Positions 17,536-61,957 of a DNA stretch of 64,000 nt are shown here, piece by piece; position 1 is the first letter of the stretch; each line of letters starts with the position of its first letter. The notes under the pieces are model-generated. The model was not told where the DNA came from. It saw nothing but the letters and a program-made list of their open reading frames with translations, and searched no databases. Source of the stretch: Hydnum rufescens UP504 (lineage: Eukaryota; Basidiomycota; Agaricomycetes; Cantharellales; Hydnaceae); NCBI GenBank assembly GCA_014904985.1, contig MU129048.1, positions 40,659 to 104,658 of the forward strand. Direction: 5' to 3'. The position numbers and the translations under genes were made by a program.

Positions 17536-17807
17536 TGTTAGTGGTGTTATAGATCCCTTAAGCCATGAGGCAACTTCATTCTTTTAAACAGGTTTACCAT
17601 AGCCTTCTAAATCCAAACCAGTGGAAAGCTTCTCCTCACAGAGGAGTTTGGTGCTGCCCTGGGAATTGCCCTTTCTTTACATAGCCTTCCTTAGTCATAC
17701 TGCCTGTATGGAAAGAGCCATGGCAATGCCCAGGTAATGTATCTTTTCTACCATCACCATCTGTCTGTCTCATGGAGTTGCAGACTTACAGATTACACAC
17801 TATACAC
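17536..17807 (+). repeat. LTR-like repeat V, copy 2
   Basis: It begins TGTTAGTGGTGTTATAG and parallels 14004-14262 over most of its length. A likely end is cagattacaca at about 17800. It is followed by ctatacactgtgtgacc and a gag-like ATG at 17831, the spacing expected between an LTR with its primer-binding site and a gag gene. Confidence 0.5.
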
Positions 17808-17830
17808 TGTGTGACCCCGGCCTAATGGCT

Positions 17831-18243
17831 AAACCTTCCTATTTTGCCCTTATGGGTATAGAGACATTAACCCTCCAGGAGCTACTGGCTTGCCAGGCAA
17901 GATGGAAGGGTCTTAGTCCTTCTAACTGGCCTAATCCATTAGAGCTGGAGCCTCCTCCACCTCTTGGCTCCACCCCACTCCTTAATTAAGATACTACCGA
18001 ATTAACAACTAACCCTGCCAGTTCCAGGGGGAGTAGCTTCACTTCCTCAAGCTTGCTAGCAACATCTGCAATGGCTGCCACCCCCACTGTTTTGAGTGGG
18101 GGGGTAGTCTTGCTTCATCAATTTCAAACCCAATTTGTGAGTTGGAACCTGGCTCTGTCACAAATGGAGAGGGTGCACTCACTTCCTCAAGCTCACAGAT
18201 TGATGATTTGGACTCTAGCCCTGCTGTCTACAGATTTCTACTA
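17831..18243 (+). pseudogene. Ser-rich gag-like N-terminal relic (F1-d)
   Basis: The ATG at 17831 opens MAKPSYFALMGIETL, LQELLACQARWKGL and LELEPPPPLGS before a TAA at about 17993; the frame then continues Ser-rich ([18 protein letters not shown]). The stretch 18021-18190 is homologous to 15890-16090 on the opposite strand, that is to the N-terminal side of F1-b ([29 protein letters not shown] after a frameshift). F1 genes may therefore be parts of retroelements that start with this leader. The sequence passes into a tandem array at 18250. Confidence 0.45.
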
Positions 18244-18249
18244 TGTGAC

Positions 18250-19380: not shown

Positions 19381-19818
19381 GAAGGCTTACACTATGTCTT
19401 ACTGCCTTGGTGGAGGCCACACTACAACTAAGTCCTTTGCTCAAACTTAGGGGGAAATATTGTAATTGATACTACAAATGGACAGTCAAAATTAAGTACA
19501 GGTTATATATAAAATTGGGAGTGGTTGGTCACTGGTGCGATGCGCAGACATTGCTGAAACTCACCATTCTTTTTTTGTTTGACACTTAACCATGCTTCCA
19601 CTTCTTGTAGGATCCAGGCATGAGCATACACTCCATGCTGATGTCCACAAAGCCCTCAAGAAGCTTGCTTCTGGTGACTGGGCATCCCAAGCTTGAGCTC
19701 TGTGGCATCTTTCCCAGGTCATCAAAACTTGTTTGAGATTTAGCCCATCACTGTGGGATGTTTAGTGTGAGCTTGAGCTCCACACTAACCTCTCTAGTGC
19801 TTCAAAAATGCCTGCCAA
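19381..19818. other. Possible LTR start and spacer
   Basis: At about 19449 a purine run (agggggaaatat) precedes TGTAATTGATAC at 19461, and tatataaaattggg follows at about 19505. This resembles a polypurine tract, LTR start and TATA box, but no partner LTR is found in the window. Confidence 0.3.
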
Positions 19819-20781
19819 GTGAAAAGCACCCTCAACAAAACACCACAGGCTTATTTCTACCTCCACAGAATTCCTAACCTCAGTGATACCAAAGCTGAGG
19901 ACTTAGATTATCTGTGGGGCAATGCCACCACTTCCAAAGATGACATCAAACAGCTCCTTGTCAATGGTATTGGGAAGCTTCTCATTTGGTGCAACATCAT
20001 TGGTTTTCCAGTCAGGTACATCTTTCAAACCCCATTTAACAATTCTTTTAGCCTTGTGCTTCAGATTAGTGGGGACCTGACAACAGTTGTGAGGATTGAG
20101 AGGGAATTGGTGGGAGATCATGAAGACTGGGACAAAAAGGGTGTGTGCATGACTCTATTGTGTATGAAGTACAAGTATGAATCAGAGTTGGAGGCTGCTG
20201 GTAAGTGCTGGCATGGGTCAGATGAGGAGCCTTTGCTCACACATCCCTTGTTTTTGTTTTTAGGGTATTGACATATGCCTTGAGGTATCAGTTCTTGGGT
20301 GGTACTCAGTTCTGCCAAGAAACAAGGGTGTTCCTCTGTAATCCTCACCTGTGACTGGAGCAAGGGACTGTTCAAGTGCTCAAAGTCTGTGCAGACCAAG
20401 TTCCATTTGTATGCTGTGGATTGGGAATGGAATCCCACTCCTGCAGTTCTGGATCCAACAGTTCCTGGGGAATTACCATGTGATGCATACATATGGCCTG
20501 AACCCCGACCTGCCAGCTCCAAGATTCAAGTCAAAGAAGTCATTCCAGCCCCCAATCCTTCACCCATTTTACCTGCAACTGGAAAAATTCTACCTGCTGA
20601 CGAGCCCGTTAAGTGGTGTCATTTAGATATTCTGGCTGAATCTAATAAGCAGGGGGAAAGTGTGGATACAGAAATGGAAGAGATGGTCAAGGGATTTGCC
20701 TATGATTGGTTTGGTGATGATTACCCCAGCTGTCATCACTATTTCAATTCCAGTCATTGGAATGCCTTCCTTGAGTCCTAA
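19819..20781 (+). pseudogene. Hypothetical protein relic
   Basis: Two plus-strand frames, 19819-20271 (150 codons) and 20299-20781 (160 codons), lie end to end with a shift near 20270-20300. The first has YFYLHRIPNLSDTKAEDLDY; the second has HLYAVDWEWNPTPAVL, PCDAYIWPEP, and ends MVKGFAYDWFGDD. Their combined length and low stop density suggest a decayed gene of over 320 codons, probably transposon-borne given its neighbours. I do not recognise the family and assign no function. Confidence 0.4.
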
Positions 20782-21464
20782 AATTTCTCAGCATAGTCAT
20801 CTCCCCTCATTTTTATTTTTTTTACTTCACTGCTATATATCATTCTTCTCATCACTAATCCCTTACTATTTTTGTCTAATCATCACCATTGTGTATAGTT
20901 TATTTGTAGATAATGTATACACTGTGTAGTAAATATTGATATTCAACTAACTCTGCAATGTTGCCAACTCCAATCAACACTATGACCATTCAGTCACCAG
21001 TACCTGTGTGAAGTATAGCACTGCAATGCTGTTGTAGTGTTTATTTTCCAGCACCTTGCCACCTAGCTGTCCAGTTAAGCAAAACACTGTCACACTGCGA
21101 TATTGTTTGTTTTCTGGCACTCTCAAGCTTTCCCTTTGGTTTTCATTGGTTGGGTGGATCACTATGACTTGTCTGTAGTGCCTGCTTGCCAATTCTTCCA
21201 AAATCCTCTCACACCACATTTCTGGTGGAGTTGTGTGCTGTCATGTTGTGACAGTGCCATTTCCCAGTATGCTCAAAGCCTCACTCTTTGTTCTCTGGGT
21301 TAAGCAATGTGTTGTCATTACTTAACGTTTGTTGTTTTCCCAGCCATCAAGTTGTCATTCTTGAGGTTGTTTTAGATTCCTAAAGGGTGAGTGCATAAAG
21401 TAAGTTGTCTTCTTATTTCATTCTAAACTTCTCATAACTAATTTGTGTCTAGCTTCTTTCTAGA
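20782..21464. other. Unassigned AT-rich spacer
   Basis: No gene is supported. It may hold the terminal part of the KDZ element that follows, but no inverted terminus was identified. Confidence 0.3.
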
Positions 21465-24400
21465 ATGATCAGCAATGCTATGAGAAATGCCAGGAAAAGA
21501 AGTGCATGCAGGCCTGGCTCCTCAAATGGGGCTTCTGTGGTTGGTTGGGTACAGGTCCAGAACGCCATGTCTGCCGCTGATACAGGGTCAGCTACACATG
21601 TCCCCAGTGGGCACTCAACCAGTACTCGATCTCCCTCTTTCCCAGATCTCCTTGACTCTCAGAGTCCTGCAGCATCAGATTTCATTACTTTGGAGTACCT
21701 GGATGTTCAATATGACTCAATGGATGTCTTAATTTTGTTGAACATCCAAGTCATTGATGACCAATGTTCACAACATGCTTGTCAGAGGCATGTGCAGGCA
21801 CACCACTGGAGTACAAGTGTATTGCCCACTCTTATTCAACCATACATGAGATTCCAAAGAGAATGCTCTGGTGCTCACCAAGCTGAAGAGCAAAGTTGGT
21901 TTGTCTGCAAATGTGGCAGCCAACACCACTCACTTGAGGTGATCTGTGTGCATATGGAATGTGTTGAGGACATTATGCTGGACATTTGCAAATGCAGACC
22001 TGCCCCGGTTCAACTTGTGCAATGTGGTTTTTTCCCATGTTCTCTGGTTCATCCTACCCTAGGAGTCAGCCTCAATATGCTAGAATTCATTGTTGAGCTC
22101 TTCCTCCACATTGCACCCAATGAAAGAGGTTAGGCTGAAATGCTAGTCAAGTACCTGAAGGCCCATAGATACCACTTCGTGACTGCTGATTCATTTTGCT
22201 GTTGCTTTGCCAATGCACTTGCTCATTACCAGCAGCCTGTGAGACTCGTCAATGCAGAGGTTGAAAAATTGGTGGATTGTTTGTGAGCCCTTAGTGGTGA
22301 AGATTATGTGGCACCCCAGTTGGACAAGACTACCCCAGTCAATGGGTGAGAGTATTCAAATGCACAGAACACTGCAACCTTCCCAAGCGATCACAGTGTT
22401 CCTAGTACCTATCTGCAGACACAGTGTCCCTTATGTTTTGGTAGTAATAGCTTGGAGAATGGGGATTTGAAGGTTGATGCCATTGTGTGCCTCAATGCAA
22501 ACTTCCAATTGAAATGTCAGTGAGACTTGGACTGATGCACTGGTCATCAGGGTGAGACTGGGACCCAGGATCCCTTTGTTGTGTCACCAAGAACAATTGA
22601 GCTATCATGGAGAGATTTGGAACTGTGGGAGGCCAAAATCCTTGACCTTCGGCCAAAGAAGTCCTCAGCCCAAGCTGGGCAGAAGTGAAAAGCCAACAAG
22701 ACCATGGAAAGTGAGGCACATGGTGTAGAGGATGAAGACAAGGTGGAGGACAATCTTAAAATGCTGAATTTGATATATAGTGTGTGTGGAAAGTCCTTTA
22801 TTGCTGTGAATGGAGACTGTGTCAAGGCTTTGACTCAATATTTCAGTGATACTGGTGTTCTTGCCATGCTCTGCTGCCACAATATTCCCCTAGTTATTGC
22901 TAGCATGTGGACTGCTGGTGAAAAACAGTTCTACACATTCACTCTTCTTGATTTCCTTTTCAAGCATTTGCCTTGTTGCTGAAGAATTGGTGTTTTGTAC
23001 AATATTGGCTGCCAAATGGACCAGTCATTGAAGAAATGGAATTTCATGCCCAACTGGACTCCACATCTTGAGTGGGGCATCTCAATTTTCCATGCTTATG
23101 GCCACCGGTGGATGTGCCAACTCTGGTACCATCCAAGAAAGAGCACAATTTGGGGCCTCTCAGATGGAGAAGGGTGTGAATGTTTTTGGAGTGGACTCTG
23201 CTGACTTATTCCATGCCTTAGGGTAACAGGCTATCATCAACACCTTTTCATTCTCAATCTACAAGTGGAACACATTGATGAAGAGAAGTGGGGGGACTTT
23301 GGAAAATGGCTGTGGGTCCATGTTGATCGAGCTCAATCTTGGTTGGATGAGGCTAAAGAGAAGCTTGCTGAAAGTACATTTTCAATTGAGTACCTCCTCC
23401 ACCAATTCAAAGAGCAACATGCATATCATAGTAAACCTATCATGCAGCAGTCAAAAACCCAAGGGGCTTGTGCAATAGAGCACATCCTGTCCTTGCAGTC
23501 AACATTAGAGGCACAACAAGAGAACTTATGGGAACTGATTAGCAAAGGCAATGATGTGATCCCTGAAGACTCTGCTGGTGAAGCTGTACTTGTTGAGTGG
23601 CAGGAAAGAGTTCATTTGACCAAGCTGGCTATTAGTCAACTTCAGTCCAATATCAAGAAAAGGACAGAAGGGCTGAAATTAGGGGATCAGGTGGTGGCAT
23701 GGAGGCTAGAGCAACTGAAGAAGGATAGATGGATCACAATGCAGCTTAATCTTTGCATTCTTTGTGAGCAGCTTGTGCAGAAGTTACATGCCCACAAATT
23801 CAAACTTGCAACACTGGATCACACCCATTCTACATGAATATTGGACCAGAAGACAAAGGTGCATGTTGAGAAGGCAGTACACCATTGCTCATCTGGGATT
23901 GATGCAACAATGAAAAAATACAATGTGAAGATAAAGGAGATGGCAGAATATTGTCAGACATCAAGGACAATATCAAAAAGTGCATATATTCCTCCCTTGC
24001 TTTTAAAGGAGGGTTTGTACAAGATGGATGTGGATCAGGATATATGGGAGGATGCATGGGCTGATGTTGGAGACTTTCCTGATGGTGTTCTTCCTCAGTA
24101 GTTGGGGGATGCTTTGGTCAAAAAGGGTATTTTCATGGCACAAGAAGTGGTTAATTGTGAGCAAGAGTTGGAGAGGTGCAAGGTGGAGAGCAGTAACCTT
24201 TGAACATGGTTCTACATGGAATATCAGGCAGTCAAGAGACTAGTCAAAGAAGCAGATGATGAAGTATCATTCTTTGCACTTTGCCAACTCCATCAATTGT
24301 ATGAGTGGCTAGAACTCTGGAGGGTGAACATGATCCATGTTCCTATTCTGTCTACTGCCCCAAGCTGGGATGAGTTTCTTCCCCCTCTGACACTGGAACA

Positions 24401-24565
24401 TCATGCATCATGCATATGAGTCCATGCACCTAATGTAGATGGTGATGATGATGATGATGCCATATCTTCAGATGATGATCAAGATGGAGAAGTAGAGGAA
24501 GATATAGAGACTGAGGATCTTGGATTTATCACATTAATAGACAATGTAATAGGAGACTTTCAGTA
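21465..24565 (+). pseudogene. KDZ-family transposase relic with CxC cysteine cluster
   Basis: The frame at 21465-22133 holds the cysteine cluster typical of Kyakuja-Dileera-Zisupton transposases: WFVCKCGSQHHSLEVICVHMEC and LDICKCRPAPVQLVQCGFFPC. After a broken stretch, the catalytic region appears at 22704-23204: AMLCCHNIPLVIASM, VLYNIGCQMDQSL, FHAYGHRWMCQLWYHPR and LSDGEGCECFW. The C-terminal coiled region follows (23265-24420), then an acidic tail (DGDDDDDAISSDDDQDGE). The Asp of the YDIGC motif is Asn (AAT, 23001-23003), matching CpG to CpA. Several in-frame stops (22981, 23202, 23835, 24099) confirm a pseudogene. KDZ enzymes move DNA transposons and are common in agaricomycetes. Confidence 0.85.
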
Positions 24566-24800
24566 ATACTATAGTCTTAACCCATATTCAGTTGATAGAC
24601 TGAGATTTTGCACAAGTCCCAATAAATGAGGTACTTGACAATGATTGATGTCAAAAGATTGTCAAATTGTAGTTTCCCATTGTCAAGATTCAGTTTTTTG
24701 ATCATCACTTGACATCAACCATGATTTCAGCCATTTAGGCATACATAAGTCATCAACATGTCCATCCTTTTAAGGCCCCTCTATGTGGCTGACCAGGCTG
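24566..24800 (-). repeat. Repeat W, copy 1 (downstream of KDZ relic)
   Basis: The sequence from gagattttgcacaag to ggcccctctatgtggctgac is the reverse complement of 51612-51826 with moderate divergence. It carries several near-repeats of ttgacatca / ttgtcaa. Its place right after the KDZ stop suggests a terminal region of such an element. Confidence 0.6.
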
Positions 24801-47736: not shown

Positions 47737-48657
47737 TTGACCGAAGATTTTCAGGTCCAACCCCATCATCCCCCAGAAGTAAGAAATCGTGCCGCATACT
47801 TGGCTGCTTCCAGAAACCCCAGCGACACACAAAAAAGCAGGACTCCCACGACGTGTTTACTGCAAGCGACCGCAGACGTGAAGATTCATGCAGGGTGGGT
47901 CGCCAGGGTTCCCATGGAAGGCCCAACTGCAGGTTGTGATGAATGGTTCATGGAGAGAGTCATACTCCCCACCTGTGACAGAAGCTTCCTAGCTGCCCCT
48001 TCAACACTGGTCAAGTCAAAGGAACTCATACTAGCAGTAGCTAACATGTCCCCCTCCATGGAATGGATCTGGAAGGGTGACATATTAGGCATCTTACATG
48101 ACCCAGAGCAATACCTCAATAGCGCCAAGGATGATGAGCAAACACAGCATTTGAAGGCCTATGCCCAGGTAGTGCAGAAGATCGCCAGGGGATCGCTAGG
48201 AGATAGGGATTTGTCAGATCAAGCATTGGCAAAGTTGCGAGCACTGGAGATTCCTCCCAAACCTGATGAACCTGAGGAACTGTGGGGCCCTAAGACATCA
48301 GAGCCCACAGACCCAACTACGTATGACTCCAAGAGACTGGAGGAGCTCATCAACATAGCTCTGGATGCTCCCCCAGATATAAAGGTGAAGACCTTGAAAT
48401 TGATCAGGAAGCATATCCATGTGTTCAGGTTTGATGATCACCTGGGAACCCTCAAAACGATCGCCAAGATCCATATGAAAGAGGAAGCTCACCCAGTTTC
48501 CATGCCCATGTACAGGGCTTCGCCAGCAAAAAGGCAGGTGATTGATGAGCAGATGGACAAGTGGATTTGCCAGGAGGTGGTAGAACCTTTGAAAAGTCCC
48601 TGGGCTGCCCCTGTAGTTATAGCATACTGGAATGGGACACCTTGGTCAGTCATCTAA
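47737..48657 (+). pseudogene. Gypsy reverse transcriptase, N-terminal part only
   Basis: A 306-codon frame covers the protease-RT linker and the first RT motifs: ELINIALDAPPDIKVKTL, HVFRFDDHLGTLKTIAKIHM, VSMPMYRASPAKRQVIDEQM, EVVEPLKSPWAAPVVIAYWN. The last block is the start of the RT fingers, where relatives usually have YRNG; Trp for Arg fits CGG to TGG. The frame then enters the hairpin C repeat and stops at 48655. The catalytic YxDD region is missing. Confidence 0.8.
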
Positions 48658-48860: not shown

Positions 48861-48983
48861 ATAATTATTTATATTATACATCCCCAGGTCATTGACTTGT
48901 TTATTTATTGATTTATTTATTTAAAATTCAATATACACCTTGGGCCTATATGCATCCCTCAAAATGAAAAAAAAAAATTTAAG

Positions 48984-49240
48984 TAGCACCACACACCCAT
49001 CCTAGCAGGTGTGTGGTACTGTCTATACAAATCAAAAAGAAAATACATGGACTACTTAGCAGCACCACACCTGCTTGGGCAGGTGTGGTACCATCACTCA
49101 AAATTAAAAAAATTCAAAAAAAAAACTAAGTAGCACCACACACCCGCTTGGGTGGGTGTGTGGTACTGTTGCTCAAAATTAAAAAAATTAAAAAAAAACT
49201 AAGTAGCACCACACACCCGCTTGGGCGGGTGTGTGGTACA
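48984..49240 (-). repeat. Four tandem A hairpins without B
   Basis: A palindromes at 48986-49020, 49063-49092, 49134-49166 and 49206-49239 recur every 71-77 bp, separated by A/T-rich spacers with actaagtagcacc. B hairpins and intron signals are absent here. On the minus strand this is the last part of the left arm of the array. Confidence 0.8.
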
Positions 49241-50260
49241 GGGGGCTGGGCTCAACGATTCACTGTTGGGCAGGTCGTTTGGACAAGTCACGGGTCACAG
49301 GTCATCATTTCAGGGGCTTGAATTTGAATCCTAAAATAATAGCATACATTCATAAAAAAAATTTTCAAAGTGACACAAAGGAGCAGCTTAGGCTGCTCCT
49401 TCCACGCCACTGTAGATATAGAAAATACAATAAAAATACCTTGTAGTACCACACACCCACCGAAGCAGGTGTGTGGTACTCATTTTGGCTCGTGGTTGCA
49501 GGTTCTTGGATTGAGTTGCAGGTGGCTGCGCACATCGGTTTTCCATTAGTGTTCTTGTTGGGTGGGGTTTCGTGCATCGAGGGGAGACCTAGAATAATCA
49601 ATAAAACATTAGTTTGAAAAAAAAAAAACAGAGGCAGCACCCAAAGAGCAGCTACTGCTGCTCTTTGGGCACCATTGTACAAGAAACTCATGAGCTATTA
49701 CCACACACCCGCTGCAGCGGGTGTGTGGTACCATATTTCATCTGTCATTGCGTATGTGTGGGTGTTCGGGTGCTGGGCTCTTGGATCAGGTTGCTTGTGG
49801 GTGGCTGCGCACATCCCTTTTTTCTGTGGGGGGTTTTCATGCTGGGAGGTGGATTAATCAGTAAATAACACGTTAATTTTTTAAAAAAAAACAAAGGAAG
49901 CACCAAAAGAGCAGCTTCTGCTGCTCTTTTGGTGCTTTCCTACATCCTATAATTGAAAACTTACAAGGTATTACCACACACCTGCTGCAGCGGGTGTGTG
50001 GTATGTGATTTCATCAATCGTCATGTTCAGGGGGCGGGCACTCTGGGCTTGGGTGACTGCGCATACTGGAGGCTCATCCGTGTGCTTGTCGGGTGGGTTT
50101 TCACATAGAGAACAACAAATAATAATACATTAGTAAAAAAAAGAAAACAGAGGTGCCAAAAGAGCAGCTTCTGCTGCTCTTTTGGCACCAGTGGGATTAG
50201 AGACGTACCTAATACTACCACACACCCACCATAGTGGGTGTGTGGTTCACATGGCCACTC
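49240..50260 (-). repeat. Hairpin-intron array, minus-strand units, block 1
   Basis: A hairpins at 49446-49480, 49699-49730, 49972-50003 and 50216-50247 alternate with B hairpins at 49370-49410, 49633-49673, 49898-49937 and 50152-50190. On the minus strand each B lies in a predicted GT-AG intron: 49331-49439 (5' GTATTT, 3' ATTTTAG), about 49589-49687 (3' ATTCTAG) and 49842-49964 (5' GTAAGT, 3' CTCCCAG). The 50.15-kb unit has 5' GTACGT (at 50208) but a lost 3' site. Branch-like ACTAA or ATTAAC precedes the 3' sites. The exons are rich in A and C and carry no long frame on that strand. The A palindrome at 49699-49730 is perfect over 32 bp. Confidence 0.85.
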
Positions 50261-51611
50261 GGGTGGCATGTGGCCACCTCCCATGGTTTCGTTTGGCATT
50301 GTTTCATTGGGTATGGCGTCGTGCAGTTTGGCGCGGTTTTGTTTGGCTGGGTCTGTTTGGTTGGGTTTCATTTGGCATGTTCATGGTTCAAAAAGAAGAG
50401 AGAGATTATTCCTTAAAAGGTTCAGACTGTACTACGGGTTATTCAAGTATCGCATGACCAGGTCCCAATCTGGATGATTGGTTAATGCACTTCTATGAAT
50501 TGGGATCCTCGCCTCCTGCCTTCTTAAACTCTCAACCCCCACCAACCCAGAGGTCAATCCATCCAATCGCTGAGGTCTAGTTGAAGGATTTGGGATGGAT
50601 TTGACAAGATGAAGGTGAAGATGAGATGATGGATTATGATACAATGTCCTTATCGACAATACATTGCGCAGGGTGTGGCTTGAAGTGGATGATGACTTCC
50701 AGGCACATGTGACCAGGAAATTAGCAGGAAGGCAGAACAGGCAAAAGAGGAAGAAAGAAGGCTGATGCTTGTCGCAGCTGCGTATAGTGGATGACTTTAT
50801 GGGCTTATTGAAACCATCAAGCAGATTCTCAGTGAATGCTACAGGCAAGAGGGTTGGCAAATCACACAGAGGGAAGCGCCACAAAGTTTATCGTCGAGAT
50901 TTACTTGATAAGCATTGGATCCTTACCATGCTCCCAAGAGACTGACCTGGTCAAACAACGAAGAGGCTTGGCATATGCCAACAGGTTTGCTTACCCTCGA
51001 CAACTTTTCTCCCCCCATCATCCTCACCTCGTACAGTTCCTGAGCCTCCTGCCCCTACCCCTGCCAATCCTCCCTGTTTCCGTCATGCCTTTATGCTGTC
51101 ATTTCTTTGCCTGCCCCCGTCAATACTCCTGCCTTCTCGCCAGCCCCCACTGTGGCTGTGTTTACCCATCGTGCCTCCTGCCCCTGTGTGCCTCCTGCCC
51201 CGCGTGCCTTCTCCCTGCTCCCACTGTGCCTCCTGCTCCCGCTGTGCCTCCTGCTCGCTGTGCTGCACCCCGCTGTGCCATCCTGCTCACTGTGCCTACT
51301 GCTCCTACTGTCCCCTGCCATATCTCCAACTCCCTCTTGCCATCACGATGATGATGATGATTGATCTTGTGAGTTTGAAGACCTCGGATTAGGACAAGGA
51401 GAGAGATTTACTGGAACTGTTTGTCATTTTAACCAACTGACTGTAACCCCAGCGGTGGGAAACTCAGTTTGGTCCATTGCAGAGAAATGCATGATGAAGG
51501 TGCTGGCTGTCTCAAGGGGAATGGAATGGCTGGCTCTCACCCTCAATCCACCCATCCCAGGGAGGCACCAATTCATCTTGGGATCAAAGGCCCCAGAAGT
51601 CCAACAAGGCC
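50261..51611 (+). pseudogene. Low-complexity coding-like relic
   Basis: On the plus strand, 50720-50890 reads QEISRKAEQAKEEERRLMLV and LIETIKQILSECYRQEGWQI, a possible coiled coil broken by stops. At 51090-51360 comes a Pro/Cys/Leu-rich repeat built of tgcctcctgctcc-like units, ending in gat repeats (HDDDDD). At 51400-51650 follows TGTVCHFNQLTVTPAVGNS and FILGSKAPEVQQGPGG. These may be parts of one decayed gene. No family is recognised. Confidence 0.3.
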
Positions 51612-51826
51612 CAGGGGGCAGCCTGAGTCAGCCATATAGAGGGCCTTAAAAGGAGGGGACATGTTGATGACTTAGGTAGGCTAAATGGCTGAAATCAAGT
51701 TGATGTCAAGTGATGATCAAAAAGCTGAATTTGACCAACTGGCATTACAATTTGGACAATATTTTGACATCAAGCAATGTCAAGTGCCTCATTTATGGGC
51801 ACTTTGCAAAATCCCAGTCAACAAAA
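51612..51826 (+). repeat. Repeat W, copy 2
   Basis: It is the inverted counterpart of 24566-24800: gtcagccatatagagggcc, gttgatgtcaagtgatgatc and gtgcctcatttatgggc are recognisable in reverse complement there. It may be a transposon terminus next to the foldback that follows. Confidence 0.6.
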
Positions 51827-51863
51827 TTAATAATTAATATTACAACCAGATAATATGTATAAT

Positions 51864-54800
51864 AAAAATGCGCCTAAATGCGGTATCAGATAGCCCAATG
51901 GGATGGGTGCAATTAGGCAATATGCCCATTAATTATACAGTATTTCCTATTTTAAAAAAATGCCTAAATGCGAAATTGGATGAAGTGCATCCAAAGAATT
52001 TAGGCATCCAGCCCAATGGGGCCCAGGACCAAGGGGGGTGCCTGGGATAGATGGATGGCCTCTAAGGGACCCCAATAGAGTGAAAAATCAGGCCAGGGCC
52101 ATGATTTAGTGCCTGAAAATGAGAAGCATGTAAAAACATCACCAGAACCAGCCGGAATTGCGAGAAATAAGCGCTGGGCGGATCGCTCTTAAATTTGGCA
52201 TGTGATTAGAGATTCCGCACTCAAATCATATAAAATTTCAGCCAAATTCATGCATAGGTATGGAGATATGAAGGAAACAAGTCTGGACATTAAAAATTCA
52301 TTTCCTCCTCAGAAAATAGCTGGGGACTTGAAAATTGCACAGAGCATAAGGACACAATGTACCTCAATTATGTGCAAAACATCAGCCCAATCTAGCTACT
52401 TTAAGGGAGTGAACTGACAATAGGTACCAGAAGCACTGGAAACTTGCCAAAAATGTAAGGAGTGCAAGGATCACTCTGAAAATTTGGCATGTGATTAGAT
52501 ACTGTTTACAAAGACCATATCAAAATTTCAAGCCAGATCGTAACTCGAAGGTACAGAGATATGAGGGAAAACAGTTTAAACATTGAAAATCAATTTACTC
52601 CCCCACAGACAAGGTATGGACTTGAAATTAGACATGGGTTATGATCATATAATTAAATAGCCATGTGCCAAAAATCAGCATATTCTGTTTACTTCCTAGA
52701 CATTCACTCCCTTTCAGGCAACAAAGAACAACAAGCTACTATGAATTAATGTTAACACTTTAAATTACACCCAAAATAGGTGGAATAGGCTTATAATTTA
52801 TAGGCCCTGACTGTTATCCAAAAATGGAATCAATTGGATGTGTGAAGTACTTAAATTTGAGGGGGAGGGGGAGGAGATCAAAAGTGAATTACATAAAGAA
52901 TGTAGCAGGGGGTGGCTCTGATATTAAACCACTGAGTTAATACATATATGGGGAGTGTAACATGCCAGTATTCACCCCAACTGACTCCATTTAGGCAGTG
53001 TTCCACAGGCCTCCCCGCCTAAACACAATTTCTCCCCAGAGCCTTCCTATCCATGTAATTCCCTGAAATGCACACTTGGGTCCATCCAAACACATCTATA
53101 GCATTCCTCAAAATTTCAGGATTTATAATCCAGTGTTAGAGTCTCCATAATTTTTCAAGTTTCACTGAGATACACCCTCAGTTGGGACACTTTCCAGATG
53201 CTCCAATCAACTTTGAATTTTTGTAGGTTCACACCTGCTCATCATTTGAGGCTCATCCCACATTTTCAGCCCATTCTGAGCACTTTTGACATGGTCACAT
53301 GACCAAGATCTTCCCTCCCCCTGTTCACTTCAGTCATCCAATTTGTGTTGGACTTTGTTTCATCTGTAGTAGTAGTTGTGTGACAGTGCATGATTCAATT
53401 TCAAAGGAGATTCCATGCAAAATTGATTGAGTTATTCAGAAACATTCTAGATCAATTCAATTTGGGGGTCAGAAAGCAAGTATTTAGTGGAAATACTGGC
53501 TGTTCTGACCCCCAAATTGAATTGATCTTAGAATGTTTCTTGAATAAACTCAATCAATATTGCATGGAAATCTCCTGAAATTTGAATCATGCACTGTCAC
53601 ACACTACTTACTACAGATGGAAAAAAGTCCACACAAATTGGATGACTGAGTGAAGCAGGGGGGGAGGGGAAGATCTTGGTCATGTGACAACATGTCAAAA
53701 GTGCTCCAGAATGGCTGAAATGTGGGATGAGCCTCAATATGAATGAGCAGGTGTGACCTACAAAATTCAAAGTGATTGGAGCTCTGGAAGATGTCCCAAC
53801 TGGAGGGTGTACTCAAGTGAACTTGAAATATTATGGGATCTAACACTGGAGTTATAAATCTGAAATTTTGAGGAATGCTATAGTGTGTTTTGGATGACCC
53901 AAGTGTGCATTTTCAGGGGAATTACATGGATAGAAGGCTCTGGGGAGGAAATTGTTGTTTAGGGGGGAGGCCTGTGGAACACTGCCTAAATGGAGGTCCA
54001 GTTGGGGTGATTATCTGGCATGTACACTACCCATATATGTATTATATGGTGTAATATCAGAGCCACCCTGCTCTCATCTTATGTAATCACTTTGATCTTC
54101 CTTCCCCCCCTCCCTCATTTAAGCTACTTCCACACATCCAATTGATTCCATTTTGGATACAGATCAGGGCTATAATATTATAAGTATTCCCTATTTTGGT
54201 GTATTGTTAAAGTGTTTACATTCATAGTAGCTTGTTGTTCTCTTTTTGCTGAAAAGGGAGTTGAATGTCTAGAAGTAAACAGAATATGCTGATTTTTGGC
54301 ACATGGCTAGTTAATTATATGGTCATAACCCATGTCTAATTTCAAGTCCATTACCTTGTCTGTGGGGGGAGTAATTGATTTTCAATGTTTAACTTGTTTC
54401 CCTCATATTCTGTACCTTCTGAGTAGATCTGGCTGAAATTTTGATATGGTCTTTGCCTAAACAGTATCTAGATCACATGCCAAAATTTCAGATGATCCTT
54501 GCACTCCTTACATTTTGCAATTTTCCAGTGCTTCTGGTACCTATTGTCCAGTTCACCTCTTAAGTAGCTAGATTGGGTGATGGTTTTGCACATAATTAGT
54601 AAACATTGTGTCCTTATGCTCTGTGCAAATTTTCAAGTCCCCAGCTATTTTTCTTGAGGAGAAATGAATTTTTAATTCCAGACTTGTTTCCTTCATATCT
54701 CCATAACCTATGCATGAATTTGGCTGAGATTTTGATATAATCTGCATAGAAGTAGCAATTAATAATGTAAAAAATTTCAGAATGATCTGCCTCAGTGGGT

Positions 54801-54950
54801 ATTTGGATGTACCTCATCCAATTCTGCATTTAGGCTTTTTTTTTAAAGGAATCATTGTATATGTTATTGGCTATGTCCAAAGTTATTATGGGAGTATCAT
54901 CTAATCACCCTTTTATATTGGTCTATCTAGTTAGTGCATTTAGGCATTTT
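51864..54950. mobile_element. Giant foldback element Y (about 3.1 kb palindrome)
   Basis: Two arms of about 1.5 kb are reverse complements of each other around about 53475. The ends are aaaaatgcgcctaaatgc at the left and gcatttaggcattttt at the right. The innermost arms (53392-53470 and 53490-53570) match almost base for base (gattcaatttcaaaggag / ctcctgaaatttgaatc). About 150 bp of the left arm (about 52010-52170) is missing on the right. Frames inside it (53390-53578 and others) are not genes. It sits inside the hairpin-intron array and is therefore later than that array. Confidence 0.85.
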
Positions 54951-54954
54951 TCAT

Positions 54955-55177
54955 GCAGCAGGTGGCTTGCCTTTGGAAACTGGGCAACTGCCGGTGTTGA
55001 GTCCCAGGTTCAATTTACCAGCAATTGCAGAAATTTTTTCTGTTTGCGCGACATCCACCACCTCGATCTACAAGTGCCCAGGACAAGCCACCACACCCCA
55101 GTATAGACTGGGGGTGTGTGTTAAGGTTATGGTTATTATGATCTTAGCTTACTCTAGTGCAAAAAGGGCAAGCCATC
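54955..55177 (+). repeat. Plus-strand hairpin-intron module, divergent
   Basis: A 3' splice-like CATGCAG (ends 54958) opens an exon with gcaactgccggtgttga, resembling the start of the right arm at 58608 (ggcaattgccggcgttga). It ends in an A-type hairpin (caccacaccccagtat...ggggtgtgtg, 55089-55120) followed by aag|gttatgg. A B half (tgcaaaaagggcaagc) is at about 55157-55173. This is the only plus-strand unit left of the centre, so it may be the right arm of a second, truncated array. Confidence 0.6.
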
Positions 55178-55400
55178 TGCACCTTGGTCAAGTCATCAAA
55201 GCTACCTAGTTAGGTACCACTTTCGGGGCAGATAATGTACCATAAGAGGTCCCCATCACTATTCTCGGCCGAAATGGCCATTTTTAAATTTCGTCGCACT
55301 CTGGCCCAGAGGTTGGCCGAAATGGCTGAAAATTGGCAGAAACTTGGCCGAAACTGGGAACTTAGAGAGAATCTCAGACTTGCAGGACAGCAGGCCATGC
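55178..55400 (+). repeat. Hairpin C terminal repeat (Z), internal copy, ending at gap
   Basis: caccttggtcaagtcatc, then the hairpin ttaggtaccactttcggggcag...gtacc (about 55207-55245), then ggccgaaatggcc repeats, parallel to 48640-48860. It keeps CpG where other copies have TpG. It runs into the 25-N gap. It may be the true left end of the right-hand element (55178-61957). Confidence 0.75.
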
Positions 55401-55425
55401 NNNNNNNNNNNNNNNNNNNNNNNNN
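55401..55425. other. Assembly gap (25 N)
   Basis: A fixed-length gap inside the Z repeat. Sequence after it (cggtgctcaccaacc) does not match the expected continuation in the copy at 48.8 kb. Confidence 0.95.
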
Positions 55426-58150
55426 CGGTGCTCACCAACCAGGGCTTGCCACTGGGTTCTGGCTGTTGGGCTGTCATTTGGGGGGGGGTCTCTGTCTGGT
55501 GTAACTCGGCGGGTGGGGCGGGTTTGGGGCCCCCACTGCATGGAGTTTGTGCATTGGGTTTGGGACAGCTCTTGGCCTGAAAGAACTAGTTAAAATTCAA
55601 AGTTTGCACAAAAAGAGCAAAGCGACCTGCTTGCTCTATTTTTTGGGCGTGACTAAGCTTTATTCAAAATTTACATATCTTATATTCGGCCACACACAAC
55701 CTGCTGCCAGCGGTTGTCTGTGGCCCGGGCTTATTGGGGATAATCACCAGTATTTATTATTATATTCCCCCCTCTAGTGTTTCATTTATAGTTATTTATT
55801 TATTATCATTATCACTCACCCCAGGTGGGGGCTGTTTTCATTTGGCAGTCTCGTGTTTTGTTTTTGTTTTTATCAACTTATGTATTTATTTATTTAAAAA
55901 TTCAATTAAAAAAACATACCACACACCTGCTAGGGCAGGTGTGTGGTACCGTCTGTTGCTTCCTCAAGACTTTGGATGGGGGGTCGTCTGGTGTTCAGAT
56001 GCGGGTTCAGGGGGCATGTTGCTGGGGTGTCGGGTGGCAAAATATTAAGTTAGAAATTCAAAGCAGTGCAAAAAGAGCAGCTATTGCTGCTCTTTTTGCG
56101 CCACTTGCAAATAAAAATCAAAATCAAAAACAGACCTTTTGTACCACACCCCTGCTGAGGGGGGTATGTGGTACTGGGCATTGCTGCCTTGGGGCTTGGA
56201 TGGGGGCTCGCCCAGCTTGTCGGTGGCCATTTGGGCGTGTTTGGCTTGGCGGCTCACCATTGTGCGGGTCATTTGGGGGTCACGGCTGTCTGTTGTCGTC
56301 GTTTCGGGAGCTTCAAATTCAATCCTAGAATTGAATGATAACGAATGTTAGTAAAAAAATTTTGAAGTGACGCCAAAGGGGCAGCTTGTGCTGCTCCTTT
56401 GGTGTCACTGTAGATGTAGAAAGTTTTAAAAAAAATACCTTGTAGTACCACACACCCACATTGGCAGGTGTGTGGTACTCATTGTTGCCCGGGGTTGCAT
56501 ACCTTCGACTGCCGGTTTTCTGTACAGTTCTCAGGTGGGTTGGGGGGGTTTCGGGTACGTACTTGTTTGGGGGGAAGGAAGATCTAGAATACAAGAATTT
56601 AGATCAGGAAAAGTTAACACGACGCAAAAAGAGCTGCCTTCGCAGCTCTTTTTGCGCCGTTGGGGTGCGTTACATTACATACCTTGTATAGACCACACAC
56701 CCGCTACTGCGGGTGTGTGGTTCGTCTCTGTGTTTGGCGCGTCGTCGTTCATGGGGATGTTGTCATTCTGGTGGGGCTTCGCGGGTCTTCATTTGCGGTG
56801 ATACCTAGAATGAAAAATTATTAGTTAAAAAATTAAAAGCGACGCAAAAAGAGCAGCAAAAGCTGCTCTTTTTGTGCTGTTGGATACAGGAAAATCACCT
56901 GCCTTAAATAGCACCAGACACCCACCATGGCGGGTGTCTGGTTTGCATTGACTTTTCGTTTGGTGGGGTTTGGTGGTGCATTCGTCGGGTTTTCTTTTGG
57001 TGTGGCTTCAGTTGGACTCATGCGGGATGTTGGATCAAATTATGACCTAGATATTAAAATATGTGTTAGTTAAAAATTCGAAGCAGCGCAAAAGAGCAGC
57101 TTTCGCTGCTCTTTTTGCGCCACAGTATCTATTGAGGGGGGGGAACTCCCCTGAACTAGTACCACACCCCCGCCGAAGCGGGTGTGTGGTACTCCCTTTG
57201 CACCCTGGTCACGTACTTGGTTCTGTATGGGGGGCTGGTTGTCACTTGGGCGGGTGTTTTGTTTCGCAGGTCTCAGTCCAGATCCTAGAGTGAGAATGTT
57301 GATTAGTAAAAAAATTCAAAGTGACGCAAAGGGAGCAGCTTGCACTGCTCCTTTTGCATCGTTGTACATATAGAAATCAAATAAAAAAAATAAAAACCTT
57401 GTAGGACCACACCCACCGAAGTGGGTGTGGTCCTTGGTTTGTACTGCAGTCGTGCAGTTCGTACTCAGTACGGGGCTTGGTTGTCATGTTGGGGGTTTGA
57501 ACTCTCACGGGTTTCATTTGGCAGGTCCGTTGCCATTCTCGTGTGTTGCTTGGTGGGGTCATGGGTTCAGACAACCTAAAATAATGTATAATATGTTAGT
57601 AAAAAGGAAAAAGAAAAGCCACGCAAAAGGAGCAGCGTACGCTGCTCCTTTTGCATGGTTATATGCTCACCTTAAAATTACCACACACCCACTGAAGTGG
57701 TGTGTGGTTCGTCTCTTCGCGTGGCACGTTGTCATTCAGGGGTCCCTTCTGTGGGTGTGTTATCGTTGTGGGGGGGCTTGCTTCGTGGGTCTGTGGTCTT
57801 CATTTGTGACAATACTGTACCTAGAATAAAATATAATTAGTTACAAAATTAAAAGCGATGCAAAAAGAGCAGCTTTCACTGCTCTTTTTGCGTGGCTGCA
57901 TCTATTAGGGGGGGGAGACTCACCTTAAATAGTACCACACCCGCCGCAGCAGGTGTGGTTCCTGGGCTCACTCATTGGGCGGCCTGTCGTTTGTTGTTTT
58001 GGTTTTGATCTGGAGGAATACAGGCTACGTTAGTATAAAAATTCATGGCAGCGCAAAAAGAGTAGCTTGCACTACTCTTTTGCACTATTGTATTTACAGA
58101 GACAAAACTTACCTTATGACCACACACCCACATCAGCGGGTGTGTGGTCG
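55426..58150 (-). repeat. Hairpin-intron array, minus-strand units, block 2
   Basis: Around ten units. A hairpins: 55690-55730 (variant), 55917-55950, 56141-56175, 56446-56479, 56691-56722, 56911-56942, 57159-57192, 57405-57433, 57679-57709, 57932-57960, 58119-58149. B hairpins: 55601-55651 (weak), 56067-56103, 56367-56409, 56621-56660, 56841-56880, 57084-57122, 57322-57361, 57620-57658, 57857-57894, 58049-58088. Predicted minus-strand introns with both ends: 56325-56438, 56584-56682 (GTATGT), 56805-56898 (GTGATT), 57285-57397, 57576-57670 (GTGAGC), 57821-57923 (GTGAGT), 58010-58112 (GTAAGT). Their 3' ends read TTCTAG, CTCTAG, ATTTTAG or CTCCAG, often with ACTAAC or ACTAAT before. Exons of 110-180 bp are A/C-rich with caaatgaa and gaatgacaac motifs and show no conserved frame. 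Confidence 0.88.
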
Positions 58151-58182
58151 TGTGGTCGTGGTCATGCGGTCACGGTCGTGCA

Positions 58183-58283
58183 CTGTTGCTGCAGCTGTTG
58201 CAGCTGCTGCAGCTGCTGTTGCTGCTGTTGCTGCTGTTGCTGCTGTTGCTGCTGTTGTTGCTGTTGTTGCTGTTGCTGTTGTG
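58183..58283. repeat. Trinucleotide repeat (CTG/TTG)
   Basis: About 100 bp of gctgct-gttgctgctgtt. On the minus strand it is CAG/CAA, which fits the A/C-rich composition of minus-strand exons, so it probably belongs to the first exon of the left arm. Poly-amino-acid frames here are by-products. Confidence 0.9.
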
Positions 58284-58607
58284 GCATGGTTGTACAGTTG
58301 CTTGCTGGGTGTGGCTGTGTAGAGTTCGAAATTTAGGGAATTGAAGGCATGAAAAATTGAAAAATGCGAAAGTTGTCCAAGATAATTAATTGCCCATGTA
58401 GAGTGTATATATAACACTACTATATTCAAATTTGGGCCAATTCTGATGTGTAGAAGTGGCCCAATCCACTCTGTAATTAGCCATCTCATGCCTTATTGAG
58501 CTCTGACTCATTACCATCCTCTTCTTTGGTTTTCCTGGACATATTTTTATTATATAGTATTTATCTATAATATACATGCTTGGTATTATTGTGTACTGTG
58601 CTTGCAG
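58284..58607. promoter_or_regulatory. Candidate divergent promoter region at array centre
   Basis: The units to the left are on the minus strand and those to the right on the plus strand, so any transcripts would diverge from here. The stretch is AT-rich and has a TATA-like tatatataa at 58406-58414 and further tatatag and tataatata near 58550-58575. A 3' splice-like TTGCAG ends at 58607, just before the first plus-strand exon. Promoter function is inferred only from position and composition. Confidence 0.35.
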
Positions 58608-59714
58608 ATGCCAGCGCTTGGGCGCTTCTTGAGTATCGGCAATTGCCGGCGTTGAATCTGCATCTTGCTTCCTATCTCTGCAACACAACAAGCAACCACC
58701 GAAAAGCAACCTGCATCGACCATCGCACCCGCCACTGCGGGTGTGTGGTCACAAGGTGAGTGTTTTTTCTAGTAGATACAATGGCGCAAAAAGAGCAGTG
58801 AAAGCTGCTCTTTTTGCACTGCTTTGGAACATCTTACTAACGTCTCTTTATTTATTTTAGATTGAGGCCTCGTCCAATGCACGATGAGAGCCCAAACAGC
58901 CACTGCGACATGTACAGGAATGCGACACAGCAACACAACATCCAGCACTGCGACACAGAAATGTGACGCATGACAGCGCGACACGGCAATGCGCCAAATG
59001 AAGACATGCCAAACGAAGATGCGATACACAGTAATGCGACACACAGCAACACAACCTATGGCAACATGCCAAACAAGCACGCAGCTGCACCAAATGAGGC
59101 CCCCAGGAACCACACACCTGCCACAGTGGGTGTGGTACTATATAATGTGAGTCCCCCCCCCAGTAGCTACAGGCACCCAAAAAGAGCAGTGAAAGCTGCT
59201 CTTTTTGCATGGTCTTTGACTCTTAACTAACATATAATCTTATATTCTAGGTCACCACTTCCCATGCAAATGAATACCCATGCAAGAACCCCATAACCCC
59301 GCCTGTCGACACCTGAATGAGGGGACCCATACAAACTGCCGCACATGTGAGCTGGAGTATGGCTCCAGTACCCCACACCTGCTGCAGCAGGTGTGGGGTA
59401 CTACAAAGTAATATTTCTTTTCATTTTTTATTCTTGTGGCACAAAAAGAGCAGCATAAGCTGCTCTTTTTGTGCTGCTTTGGAATTTTTTTTTTACTGAT
59501 GTGCATTATTCTAGATTAGGGCCCATCCAACGCAGGACGATAACCCATGAAACGACAAAAGCCCCAACAGCGATGTGCCACACAGCAACGCGACACGGCA
59601 ACGCAATACACGGCAACACCAATACACCAATGTGACACAGCAATGGGCCAATGATGCAACCGCACCAAAGCCCAAGGCAGCGCACCAAATGAGGGCACGG
59701 AATCACACACCCGC
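58608..59714 (+). repeat. Hairpin-intron array, plus-strand units, block 3
   Basis: Exon 58608-58755 ends in an A hairpin (58725-58749). Intron 58756-58860 has 5' GTGAGT, B at 58784-58822, branch ACTAAC at 58836-58841 and 3' ATTTTAG. Exon 58861-59146 has A at 59107-59137. Intron 59147-59250 has GTGAGT, B at 59174-59211, ACTAAC at 59226-59231 and TTCTAG. Exon 59251-59407 has the perfect 34-bp A palindrome at 59368-59401. Intron 59408-59514 has GTAATA, B at 59438-59476, CTGAT and TTCTAG. Exon 59515-59714 ends inside an A hairpin, where a solo LTR enters. Exons 58861 and 59515 repeat gcgacac / cagcaa motifs and are poor in T. Confidence 0.88.
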
Positions 59715-61093
59715 TGTTGGAGGGATAAATCCCTACACCATAGATTCCTCATCTGAGGCCCATTTTCCCTATGAACAAATCAATTATATGTCACCACGCT
59801 CATTTAATTTTATTGCCATTCATTTATTCAAGAAATCAATTGGATTCCTACCCTTTCCAACCCATAATATCGCCTCATTCCTTTACCATGTCCACCAGTC
59901 AATTTATTGACTATCCATCGGACTTCAACAGTCCTCATCAAAAAGGGCAGTTTATGCCCTACTTCAAGTCCATTTTCTTTGGACAAGGCAATTCACTTGC
60001 CATCTTTCTTCAAGACTGGATGACTTGCCTGCTCTTCCAAACCATCCTATTGCCTTAAGGGCAATGAATTGTGATTATGTAATGATGCGGACTGGGCCTA
60101 GTTCCGATTCTGGACTCACAGATCCATCACATGATCCAGATAGGGGCTGCACTACTCTGAAGGAGTATTTTTCGAATTTCTCCGTCATTTTTGATCGGAT
60201 CGACTCGAAACGACCGCGCCCAGAAAGATACGAATCGTACCTATCGAATGGTACCAAACACGAAACAAACGGATCAAAAATGCCGTCCCTGTAACAATAT
60301 CTTGCCATGATTTATACTCTGAAGGAGTATTTCTTGATTTTCGAAGCCAATTCTTATCGGATTCATTCGCGAGTACCACGCCCTGAAAGCTGTTAAAAAT
60401 GCGCATCGAACGGTATCAAGGGCAAAACGAGCGGACGCGAATTCCATTTTTCACAAGACAACTCCCTCCCCATGACTCCCCCTTGCTCCACCATTCAAAA
60501 TAGCGAATTACTTCCGGCCCTCTTATGTCCGATGGAGAAGACCCTCAGGGCGACTATTCCACTTTTCCTTAAGGAACTTGTCCAGGTTTGAAGGAGGAAT
60601 AGCATGTAATGTGTCAATCTCCCCTTTTATCTTGAAATTGGAATATCTCCATCAGTTTTGAAGATTTTAACTTCATTTCTTTTTCTCTGTGTGTCCCTTA
60701 TGTCCGACTTTTTCACTTTATATTGAGTCGAAGTCTGGATTGTATATTAGGTGCAGCTAGCACACAAATTCATTAGTTCTCCCCCTCCCTCCAGTTTGAA
60801 GCTCCTTGAACAGCTGCTGGTTCCTGGGTGATTTCTCACTACAAAAGCGAATTCTAACTACACTTTGACTAAGGTCTCAAGAAGGGATTCTTAGGGTGTG
60901 GTAATTTGACTGAAACACACATTCTCACTTAATTGCTTGGGCTTTGCTGGCTCATTGCAATTCCCCCTGTTCAAAAGACCTTCCTCCACTCAAACCTAAA
61001 CAGCCAGATTAGATCTGTGATCCCCTCTTTCATCCCTGGCTCAACCTTGCGGACAGTGGTTGGATTGGTTCATAACCATCCTTCTTACACTGC
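59711..61093 (-). repeat. Solo LTR, copy 3, inserted in an A hairpin
   Basis: 59715-61089 (1375 bp) is the reverse complement of the LTR family, from TGTTGGAGGG to CTTCTTACA. The A hairpin is split: its left arm (cacacacccgc) ends at 59714 and the right arm (gtgggtgtgtgg) resumes at 61099. The flanking 4 bp are CCGC and CTGC; the one difference is a CpG to TpG change. Frames inside are not genes. Confidence 0.85.
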
Positions 61094-61700
61094 CCTGGTG
61101 GGTGTGTGGTTCTATATCAGGTAAGTCCCCGCCCCCTCAGTAGCTACAGCCACGCAAAAAGAGCAGCAAAAGCTGCTCTTTTGCATGGCCCTTATTTCCT
61201 AACTAATTTAAAAATAATATTTTGTAGGTTTCAACTGCCCTCACAAACAAATACTGACAAAGAACCCCCCATAACCCTGCCTATCGACCCCCGAACAACA
61301 GGGGACCCATACAAACTGCTGTGCGTACAAGCTGGCATATGGATGAGCCGGCGTGCACGGTCCCAGTACCCTACACCTGTGGGTGTGGGGTACAAGGTAT
61401 GTGTTATGTTTTTTTTTTATTTCTTAGTCTTGTGGCGCAAAAAGAGCAGCATAAGCTGCTCTTTTTGCATTGCATTAATGTTGTACTAACATTGAATCCC
61501 TTATTTCTATAGACCCTTGACCAGAACCTGCATGAACCCCCCTGAACCCGCCAAATGACACCTTGGGAACGAAAACTGCAAATGAGCCCTGCGAACAAAA
61601 ACCCACTCCCTCGAGGGAGCGCCCAAATGGAACCAGCCCCGACTGGGGCATATGAACCCCACCCGCTGTGGTGGGTGTGGTGGGTATATGCAGGTGCGTG
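61090..61700 (+). repeat. Hairpin-intron array, plus-strand units, block 4
   Basis: After the LTR the exon ends at 61120. Intron 61121-61227 has GTAAGT, B at 61150-61188, CTAAC at 61199-61203 and TTGTAG. Exon 61228-61396 resembles exon 59251-59407 (both have ggggacccatacaaactgc) and ends in a shortened A hairpin (about 61369-61392). Intron 61397-61512 has GTATGT, B at 61437-61473, ACTAAC at 61485-61490 and TCTATAG. A last exon (from 61513) ends in an A-like hairpin (61656-61680) and a potential 5' site ATGCAG|GTGCGT at 61693 with no intron after it. Confidence 0.85.
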
Positions 61701-61762: not shown

Positions 61763-61804
61763 TATAATAATAGTAGTAATAATAATAATAATAATAATAA
61801 ATAA
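61763..61804. repeat. AAT microsatellite
   Basis: An ataataataata run of about 40 bp after a G/C tract, at the right end of the array. Confidence 0.9.
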
Positions 61805-61879: not shown

Positions 61880-61957
61880 TGGGGGACCTCTTAGGTACCA
61901 TTTTCTGCCCCAAAAGTGGTACCTAAATTAGGTCCCCCCCATGACTGACCAGCCTGC
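61880..61957 (-). repeat. Hairpin C terminal repeat (Z), right end of array
   Basis: The hairpin ttaggtaccattttctgccc...gtggtacctaa (61890-61935) lies in inverse orientation to those at 48659 and 55207, and atgactgaccagcc at the outer edge is the inverse of ggtcagtcat at the left ends. The MFS coding sequence begins immediately outside, so this is the boundary of the element. Confidence 0.75.

Follow-up and report, generated by a model that had tools for sequence, protein, structure and literature searches.

An exon-closing hairpin centred some 23 bases before the splice site suggests a Hydnum rufescens transposon family shaped for splicing, not for protein

Between 48.6 and 62 kb of the 64,000-nucleotide stretch of Hydnum rufescens DNA analysed here (the window), A/C-rich segments closing on a hairpin (A) are followed by intron-like intervals that hold another hairpin (B), and the locus raises the question of what kind of element is built from such modules. 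The sequence-only reading had described modules that could be spliced, seemed not to code and carried two hairpins in a set order; the observation was confirmed as a whole, and as a reading it is supported in part. Its interpretation was right about the modules and the lack of a frame, and missed that the array is the interior of a high-copy DNA transposon family with terminal inverted repeats (TIRs), a two-sided plan and KDZ-like ends. The ends in the window are as follows.

48638..48652, + strand: left TIR end, CACCTTGGTCAGTCA, the start point of most scored matches to 48630-48860
61942..61956, - strand: right TIR end, CAGGCTGGTCAGTCA on the - strand

The left end was placed by match starts, scored in 40 of 665 candidates; of the 39 other scored matches to 48630-48860, 33 start at the eighth or ninth base of the query, which is where this end lies. 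A genome search with the TIR end gave 716 matches, against 3 for the reversed pattern. Copies are dispersed and bounded in the 63-Mb host genome, and paired copies measure 4.4-8.2 kb between ends. Target duplications of 7-8 bp flank the 16 paired A/B elements exactly in nine cases (7 bp in seven, 8 bp in two) and with one mismatch in two more, while five have none. Two marks of a non-autonomous TIR DNA transposon, the terminal inverted repeats and the target site duplication, are present in the family. One locus with a TIR pair and no A hairpins (L031) was rejected as a member; it holds Copia-like ORFs and is another element.

The probable source of movement is indicated by another element of the same window.

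12452..24800, + strand: decayed KDZ transposon whose ends, CACCTCGGTCAGCCA ... TGGCTGACCAGGCTG, are related to those of the family; a candidate relative of whatever supplies the transposase

The family ends match those of this transposon at 13 of 15 bases, and a KDZ (Kyakuja-like) transposase therefore probably acts on the family in trans, a functional link that is inferred. Kyakuja/KDZ elements of Agaricomycetes have 7 bp duplications and CA..TG termini according to Kojima (2025, PMC12730594), and the family shares both features, its duplications being of 8 bp in the two exceptions given above. It differs in its interior of hairpin modules, and none of the KDZ matches listed falls inside the 16 paired copies. 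The genome contains at least 154 KDZ matches. Six KDZ loci of 3.8 kb have no A hairpin, and B matches occur only in the one of them (L040) that also bears a family TIR end. The search for a copy joining a KDZ gene to exact family ends found none; at two sites, C97 and C158, a KDZ match lies about 7 kb inside a family TIR, and at C97 no second end was found within the 2 kb fetched. An origin from hAT elements, which have 90 hAT-dimer matches in the genome, was set aside, the KDZ link being stronger.

Each copy is two-sided: from a central dyad, divergent rows of modules run toward an AATAAA signal near each TIR. The signal was found in sense orientation within 450 nt of the TIR end at 23 of 23 ends (12 loci), against 5/23 in antisense, 2/23, 2/23 and 1/23 in interior control windows and 2/17 in outer flanks.

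58334..58606, no strand: central dyad, right half only, containing TATATATA, presumed two-way promoter; the window copy has no left half
61796..61801, + strand: AATAAA near the right end, read in sequence

In several other copies the stretch 58331-58657 occurs twice, once in each orientation, on either side of this point, and locus L017 has a palindrome of 660 bp. Modules lie on either strand, as had been stated, and their strand switch is the two-sided plan of the element around its dyad.

The array in the window is a composite of copies and insertions, with these features.

48985..49240, - strand: terminal A hairpins in tandem, lacking B and a clear donor, read in sequence
49842..49964, - strand: module intron from the scan, donor 49964, acceptor 49842, B at 49894-49941
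56584..56682, - strand: module intron from the scan, B at 56619-56660
57576..57670, - strand: module intron, read in sequence
57821..57923, - strand: module intron from the scan, A at 57934-57959, B at 57854-57897
58010..58112, - strand: module intron from the scan, B at 58056-58081
58607..58755, + strand: first + exon (start assumed), with hairpin A at its end, 58718-58749
58756..58860, + strand: intron 1, with GTGAGT, hairpin B at about 58781-58822, ACTAAC and TTTTAG
58861..59146, + strand: exon 2, A/C-rich, with hairpin A at its end, about 59108-59140
59147..59250, + strand: intron 2, hairpin B at about 59168-59212
59408..59514, + strand: intron 3, donor weak in the window copy
59713..61090, no strand: 1.38-kb insertion within the hairpin A of exon 4, 94% like window 43093-44475
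61121..61227, + strand: intron of the exon-4 module, read in sequence
61397..61512, + strand: last recognised + intron, from the scan, A at 61366-61393, B at 61431-61474

What had been taken for one array, 48960-61700, is interrupted by other sequence at about 50.3-55.7 kb, which includes a run of N at 55401-55426, and by the insertion at 59713-61090, probably a solo LTR and absent from copies such as L010-L015, where 59712 adjoins 61093. The five junctions named beforehand are present by eye, 58756/58860, 59147/59250 and 61121/61227 on the + strand and 57670/57576 and 57923/57821 on the - strand, and the scan adds 49964/49842, 56682/56584, 58112/58010 and 61397/61512; "at least ten" intervals with both splice sites had been claimed, and nine with recognised donor, branch point and acceptor were counted. 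The scan of the window called 13 A-B units, five of them with all three splice signals, and it misses units with decayed hairpins, such as 58756-58860. The A/B order, said to hold always, holds broadly, the exceptions being the tandem or terminal A hairpins without B at 48985-49240 and in L017, which has two terminal ones. In intron 1, GTGAGT, ACTAA and TTTTAG are invariant across 22 aligned rows. No known RNA family was recognised in 48600-62000: Rfam gave 24 matches at E values of 1 or less, all of them below the gathering score, and the best were to miRNA models, at an inverted repeat near 53.4 kb.

A module opens with an exon that closes on hairpin A; the 5' splice site, hairpin B, the branch point and the 3' splice site follow in turn. 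This order was examined by a hairpin scan of 27 loci, namely 26 fetched stretches and window 48601-62000, a non-random set in which 18 of 20 were the best matches to 58600-59300 and two were lower, six others being picked from TIR positions. The scan found 365 B hairpins, 301 with an A within 75 nt on exactly one side and 64 without A on either side. With A taken as upstream, strict signals (GTRAG, CTAAY and YAG) were complete in 133 of the 301 in sense and in none in antisense, and looser motifs in 213 against 9; the loose donor alone discriminates poorly (236 against 172), and branch point plus acceptor discriminate well (270 against 18). Across the genome, B-core sites number 6164 (up to two mismatches) and A-core sites 5386 (up to three), each against none for the reversed pattern. 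Three later loci agree broadly: A was followed by a donor in 8/8 units of L042, with branch point and acceptor in 7/8; in L043 the four units examined, from five B hairpins, were all complete (antisense 0/4), with the A centre at -25.5; and in L044 the three examined of five had branch point and acceptor in 3/3 (antisense 0/3) and a donor in 2/3. The idea of subfamilies without common exon sequence was dropped, as matches somewhere in L017 cover 1922 of the 2500 bases of L042. At non-CpG sites the divergence within copies is similar for exons (1.5-4.3%) and introns (1.9-4.1%), so that selection, if any, would act on source elements; an apparent higher conservation of introns disappeared once CpG sites were set aside.

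The hairpins themselves have a marked geometry. Across 17 module types the centre of A lies 23.5 nt before the exon end with a standard deviation of 1.6; no other spacing in the module is as tight, the standard deviations of the others being 5.6-7.6, and positions -22 to -29 fall within A in all 203 complete units. Of an intron of 104 nt, hairpin B takes up about 40 nt and leaves about 65 nt. Among all printed representatives (32 A and 25 B), 4/10 pairs of the A stem changed on both sides, a count reached by 7 of 500 shuffles, the covariation score being reached by none; the number of A-stem pair types is within the shuffle range (302/500 reach it). In the B stem 7/14 pairs changed on both sides, reached by 0/500 shuffles. 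The scan selected units by their hairpins, which in itself brings good pairing and some of these paired changes into the sample. In sense, 206 of 285 B loops are C(GNRA)G or differ from it by a single CpG transition, against 4 of 285 in antisense; this loop was rejected as a rule of B, other loops occurring in 13/32 module types and in L042-L044, and in either orientation 29 of 54 listed sites from the 6164 are within one CpG change of GNRA by hand count. A bias of A toward UNCG is weak (117/293 against 51/293; 12/35 module types).

Could these modules encode a protein? A low-complexity gene captured by the transposon would be in keeping with eight annotated hypothetical proteins of H. rufescens, which match the in-silico translation spliced at predicted junctions, and with ORFs of up to 253 aa, stop to stop; those proteins are the sole outside hint of transcription and splicing and may simply reflect gene prediction. 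The exons tell against such a gene: the lengths of 122 internal ones leave remainders 0, 1 and 2 evenly (41, 44, 37), few exon indels are multiples of three (2/17, 9/30, 0/18 and 1/64), and the longest ORF goes beyond shuffles at the 5% level in only 3 of 37 chains. The earlier statement that exons keep no conserved reading frame is borne out by all three measures, and the captured gene is very improbable; a frame in a living source is still conceivable, given the decay of the copies and of introns that some chains pass over. Slightly less improbable, yet unlikely, are repeats working at the DNA level, the palindromes being subterminal transposase-binding or cruciform sites on which splice motifs hitch-hike. 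The two-sided plan would suit them, DNA pairing would also explain compensating changes in palindromes, and mismatches in A are nearly as often A.C as G.U (162 vs 194), but donor, branch point, acceptor and terminal AATAAA are strand-specific, the tightest spacing runs from A centre to exon end, and B has sense-only GNRA loops and G.U over A.C (366 vs 233; copies not independent).

The best reading, judged from sequence, is a transposon selected for two-way transcription and splicing as non-coding RNA. Two divergent, intron-rich transcription units would run from the central dyad promoter to the poly(A) signals at the TIRs, with each module shaped at the RNA level and hairpin B folded out of the intron. 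Hairpin A would occupy the spot where the splicing machinery puts the exon junction complex (EJC), 20-24 nt upstream of junctions (PMC4509934), and may keep it off them; the proposal is that spliced RNA without a useful frame would thus escape nonsense-mediated decay, and that transcription, the spliced RNA or both would protect the element from silencing. EJC-linked decay exists in Neurospora (PMC6173133), and the H. rufescens genome has matches to Mago, Btz and UPF2. The position of A fits an EJC site; against this, terminal A hairpins guard no junction and the 64 B hairpins have no A nearby, and access to the splice site could also explain the position. That explanation, with the same transposon and the same splicing, has the A stem free the donor and define the exon end and B shorten the intron, with no part for the EJC. 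It would account for the intron length removed by B and for an A 3' end lying a median of 6 nt before the donor, but does not by itself explain why A is fixed by its centre and not by its edge: values for the 3' end run from -4 to 21 nt, a spread to which scan-called stem length adds noise. We consider it possible but rather unlikely, and give an even chance to the full account of a non-autonomous TIR family, probably moved by KDZ, whose divergent spliced non-coding units have A keeping the EJC off junctions. More doubtful than the splice-access explanation is an extension of that account in which a standard part (exon, EJC-site hairpin and hairpin intron) was multiplied and the spliced non-coding RNA, kept free of junction marks by EJC exclusion in cis, would evade RNA surveillance and with it host control.

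Known systems resemble the family in part. MITEs are well under 1 kb. With them and other non-autonomous TIR elements the family shares TIRs, target duplications and high copy number, and among the KDZ matches listed none lies inside its paired copies; unlike MITEs, its copies are of several kb, with a dyad that resembles a promoter, modules fit for splicing, and poly(A) signals. Satellites form long tandem arrays without ends, whereas these copies are dispersed and bounded. Introners are mobile and carry splice signals, many families having TIRs or target duplications (PMC9860276), but an introner is one intron in a host gene, whereas this element brings a whole series of exons and introns with it, with splice sites internal and repeated and with ends that are not splice sites. 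The SOLE of oskar (PMC4509934) is likewise an RNA hairpin at an exon junction tied to EJC function; it is built from both exons and works with the EJC, whereas hairpin A precedes each junction, covers the EJC site and is repeated in one module after another.

No transposon with a comparable interior turned up in searches of the open-licence literature. If the reading is true, the family offers one splicing module repeated naturally some thousands of times, already varied in hairpin, loop and spacing, as a system for testing the roles of exon-intron structure and of junction marking. It would also show which features of a mobile element selection may preserve where making protein is beside the point.

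The module is defined by a fixed order of splice signals around two hairpins. In 26 genomic stretches and window 48601-62000 (27 loci, mostly best matches to 58600-59300), 365 B hairpins were found, 301 of them with an A hairpin at most 75 nt away on exactly one side. When these 301 modules are scored in sense and antisense, with A taken as upstream, all strict splice motifs are present in 133 on the sense strand and in none on the antisense strand. Strict donors number 182 against 29, and strict branch points with acceptors 230 against 12; the donor is the weaker signal, since with looser motifs and judged by itself it is present in 236 sense and 172 antisense cases. Across the 203 units in which all three signals are present, the median intron is 104 nt long, or 65 nt with B left out. 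Inspection by eye of window 48400-64000 confirmed that the junctions named by the sequence-only reading (58756/58860, 59147/59250, 61121/61227, 57576/57670 and 57821/57923) are present in the sequence.

Hairpin A covers positions -22 to -29 from the exon end in 203 of 203 complete units. Its centre lies at -23.5, with a standard deviation of 2.8 over units and 1.6 over 17 module types. The search for donors ran from the last 5 bases of A through the gap and into B, which left room for A-donor distances of many tens of bases. Other spacings vary more (donor to B 5.6, B to branch point 7.6, branch point to acceptor 7.6). The later loci L042, L043 and L044 agree in module order and, less exactly, in spacing, the A centres lying at about -24 in five units and -16 in three of L042, at -25.5 in four units of L043 and at -25.5 in the single unit measured of L044. 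According to published splicing work, hairpins at the EJC site can disturb EJC loading. EJC deposition occurs 20-24 nt upstream of junctions (PMC4509934; also the title of a work cited in PMC4482076).

Good pairing is partly built in, because the units were detected as hairpins. Among all printed representatives (32 A and 25 B, chosen for complete signals and high CpG), stem pairs changed on both sides are 4 of 10 in A and 7 of 14 in B, against at most 2 and 3 when the partner is shifted by 1-3 columns. The loop of B is C(GNRA)G, or one CpG transition off, in 206/285 cases in sense and 4/285 in antisense (19/32 by module type), and that of A is C(UNCG)G at the same tolerance in 117/293 and 51/293 (12/35 by module type). 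G.U pairs exceed A.C pairs in A (194 vs 162) and in B (366 vs 233); folding energy is better on the sense strand in 137 A and 185 B hairpins and on the antisense strand in 82 and 103, of 301 each.

The modules belong to a large family. In the genome searched (63.2 Mb, 539 contigs) there are 6164 B and 5386 A core sites, and 36 further sites match a 701-base array piece over at least 570 bases at 82-91% identity; with 40 of 1522 candidates scored, this count is a minimum. The elements begin with CACCTTGGTCAGTCA on the left and end in TGACTGACCAGCCTG on the right; the TIR pattern CASSYTGGTCAGTCA has 357 + 359 genomic matches vs 1 + 2 for its reversed control. Paired elements measure 4.4-8.2 kb, and of 16 examined nine have exact target duplications (seven of 7 bp, two of 8 bp), two have duplications with one mismatch and five have none (L010, L015, L028, L032, L034). 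The flanks of the window TIR pair carry no target duplication, as expected of a composite. Window 54940-55130 has a degenerate motif resembling that of the first exon, together with an A-like hairpin, and a second left-TIR-like end follows at 55177; these are the remains of another copy. At 38612 lies a further family TIR end of CACC type, whose element extends left and has no recognised partner in the window.

In copy L017, inspected end to end, two arms of modules on opposite strands extend from a 660-bp central palindrome outward to the TIRs, and within them A and B alternate for the most part. The first exon of both arms opens with a motif around TTGGGCGCTT and GCCGGCGTTGAAT, and the first exons of both L042 arms start with a changed form of it. 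A sense AATAAA lies within 450 nt of 23/23 ends in 12 loci, compared with 5/23 in antisense, 2, 2 and 1 of 23 in interior sense windows and 2/17 in outer flanks.

Exon indels are multiples of three in 2/17, 9/30, 0/18 and 1/64 cases, the 122 internal exon lengths leave remainders 0, 1 and 2 in 41, 44 and 37, and in 3 of 37 chains the longest ORF is longer than shuffling gives at the 5% level. A translation spliced in silico at the predicted junctions matches eight annotated H. rufescens hypothetical proteins, between some of which the reading frames disagree. In 22 aligned rows, 1316 differing cells fall at 267 CpG-able columns vs 816 elsewhere, and non-CpG divergence is 1.5-4.3% in exons, 1.9-4.1% in introns and 7.1% in the centre. 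CpG decay is thus dominant, as after methylation, and the exon and intron values show no visible constraint after insertion.

A candidate relative of the transposase source lies in the same window.

Candidate relative of the mover, in the window
12452-24800, decayed KDZ transposon with related ends and KDZ-like ORFs

Each of its two ends shares 13 of 15 bases with the ends of the A/B elements, and 6 of 8 flanking bases agree. Its ORFs match KDZ transposase (E 2e-9 and 1.3e-22) and the CxC1 cluster of that transposase; a CxC1-like ORF of the window matches H. rufescens UP504 proteins at up to 92% identity, and KDZ matches number at least 154 genome-wide. According to Kojima 2025 (PMC12730594), Kyakuja elements make 7 bp target duplications and have CA..TG termini, and the two Laccaria families described there lack TIRs. 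We infer that a transposase of such KDZ kind moved the A/B elements.

Other repeats lie within or beside these copies. Window 59713-61090 and L023 2599-3985 each hold a probable solo LTR of 1.38 kb, in both cases within an A hairpin but not the same one, and a related stretch lies at window 43093-44475; palindrome tips may be preferred for insertion. An element at L031 101-8430 (C2:140418-148747) has the same TIRs as the A/B family, long inverted repeats and internal Copia-like ORFs; A hairpins are absent from it, and it is apparently inserted in an A/B element. Window 52331-54632 is a large imperfect inverted repeat, its arms up to 98% complementary, with sub-threshold Rfam matches to miRNA precursors.

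Intron removal reduces RNA levels in Cryptococcus (PMC3744415) and Neurospora has EJC-linked decay (PMC6173133). Matches to Mago, Btz and UPF2 were found in the genome. Spliced RNA without a long frame would be expected as a target of decay, and a stable hairpin A over each EJC site would hide such RNA from it. This proposed hiding of the EJC site by hairpin A is ranked first, above a pure splicing role.
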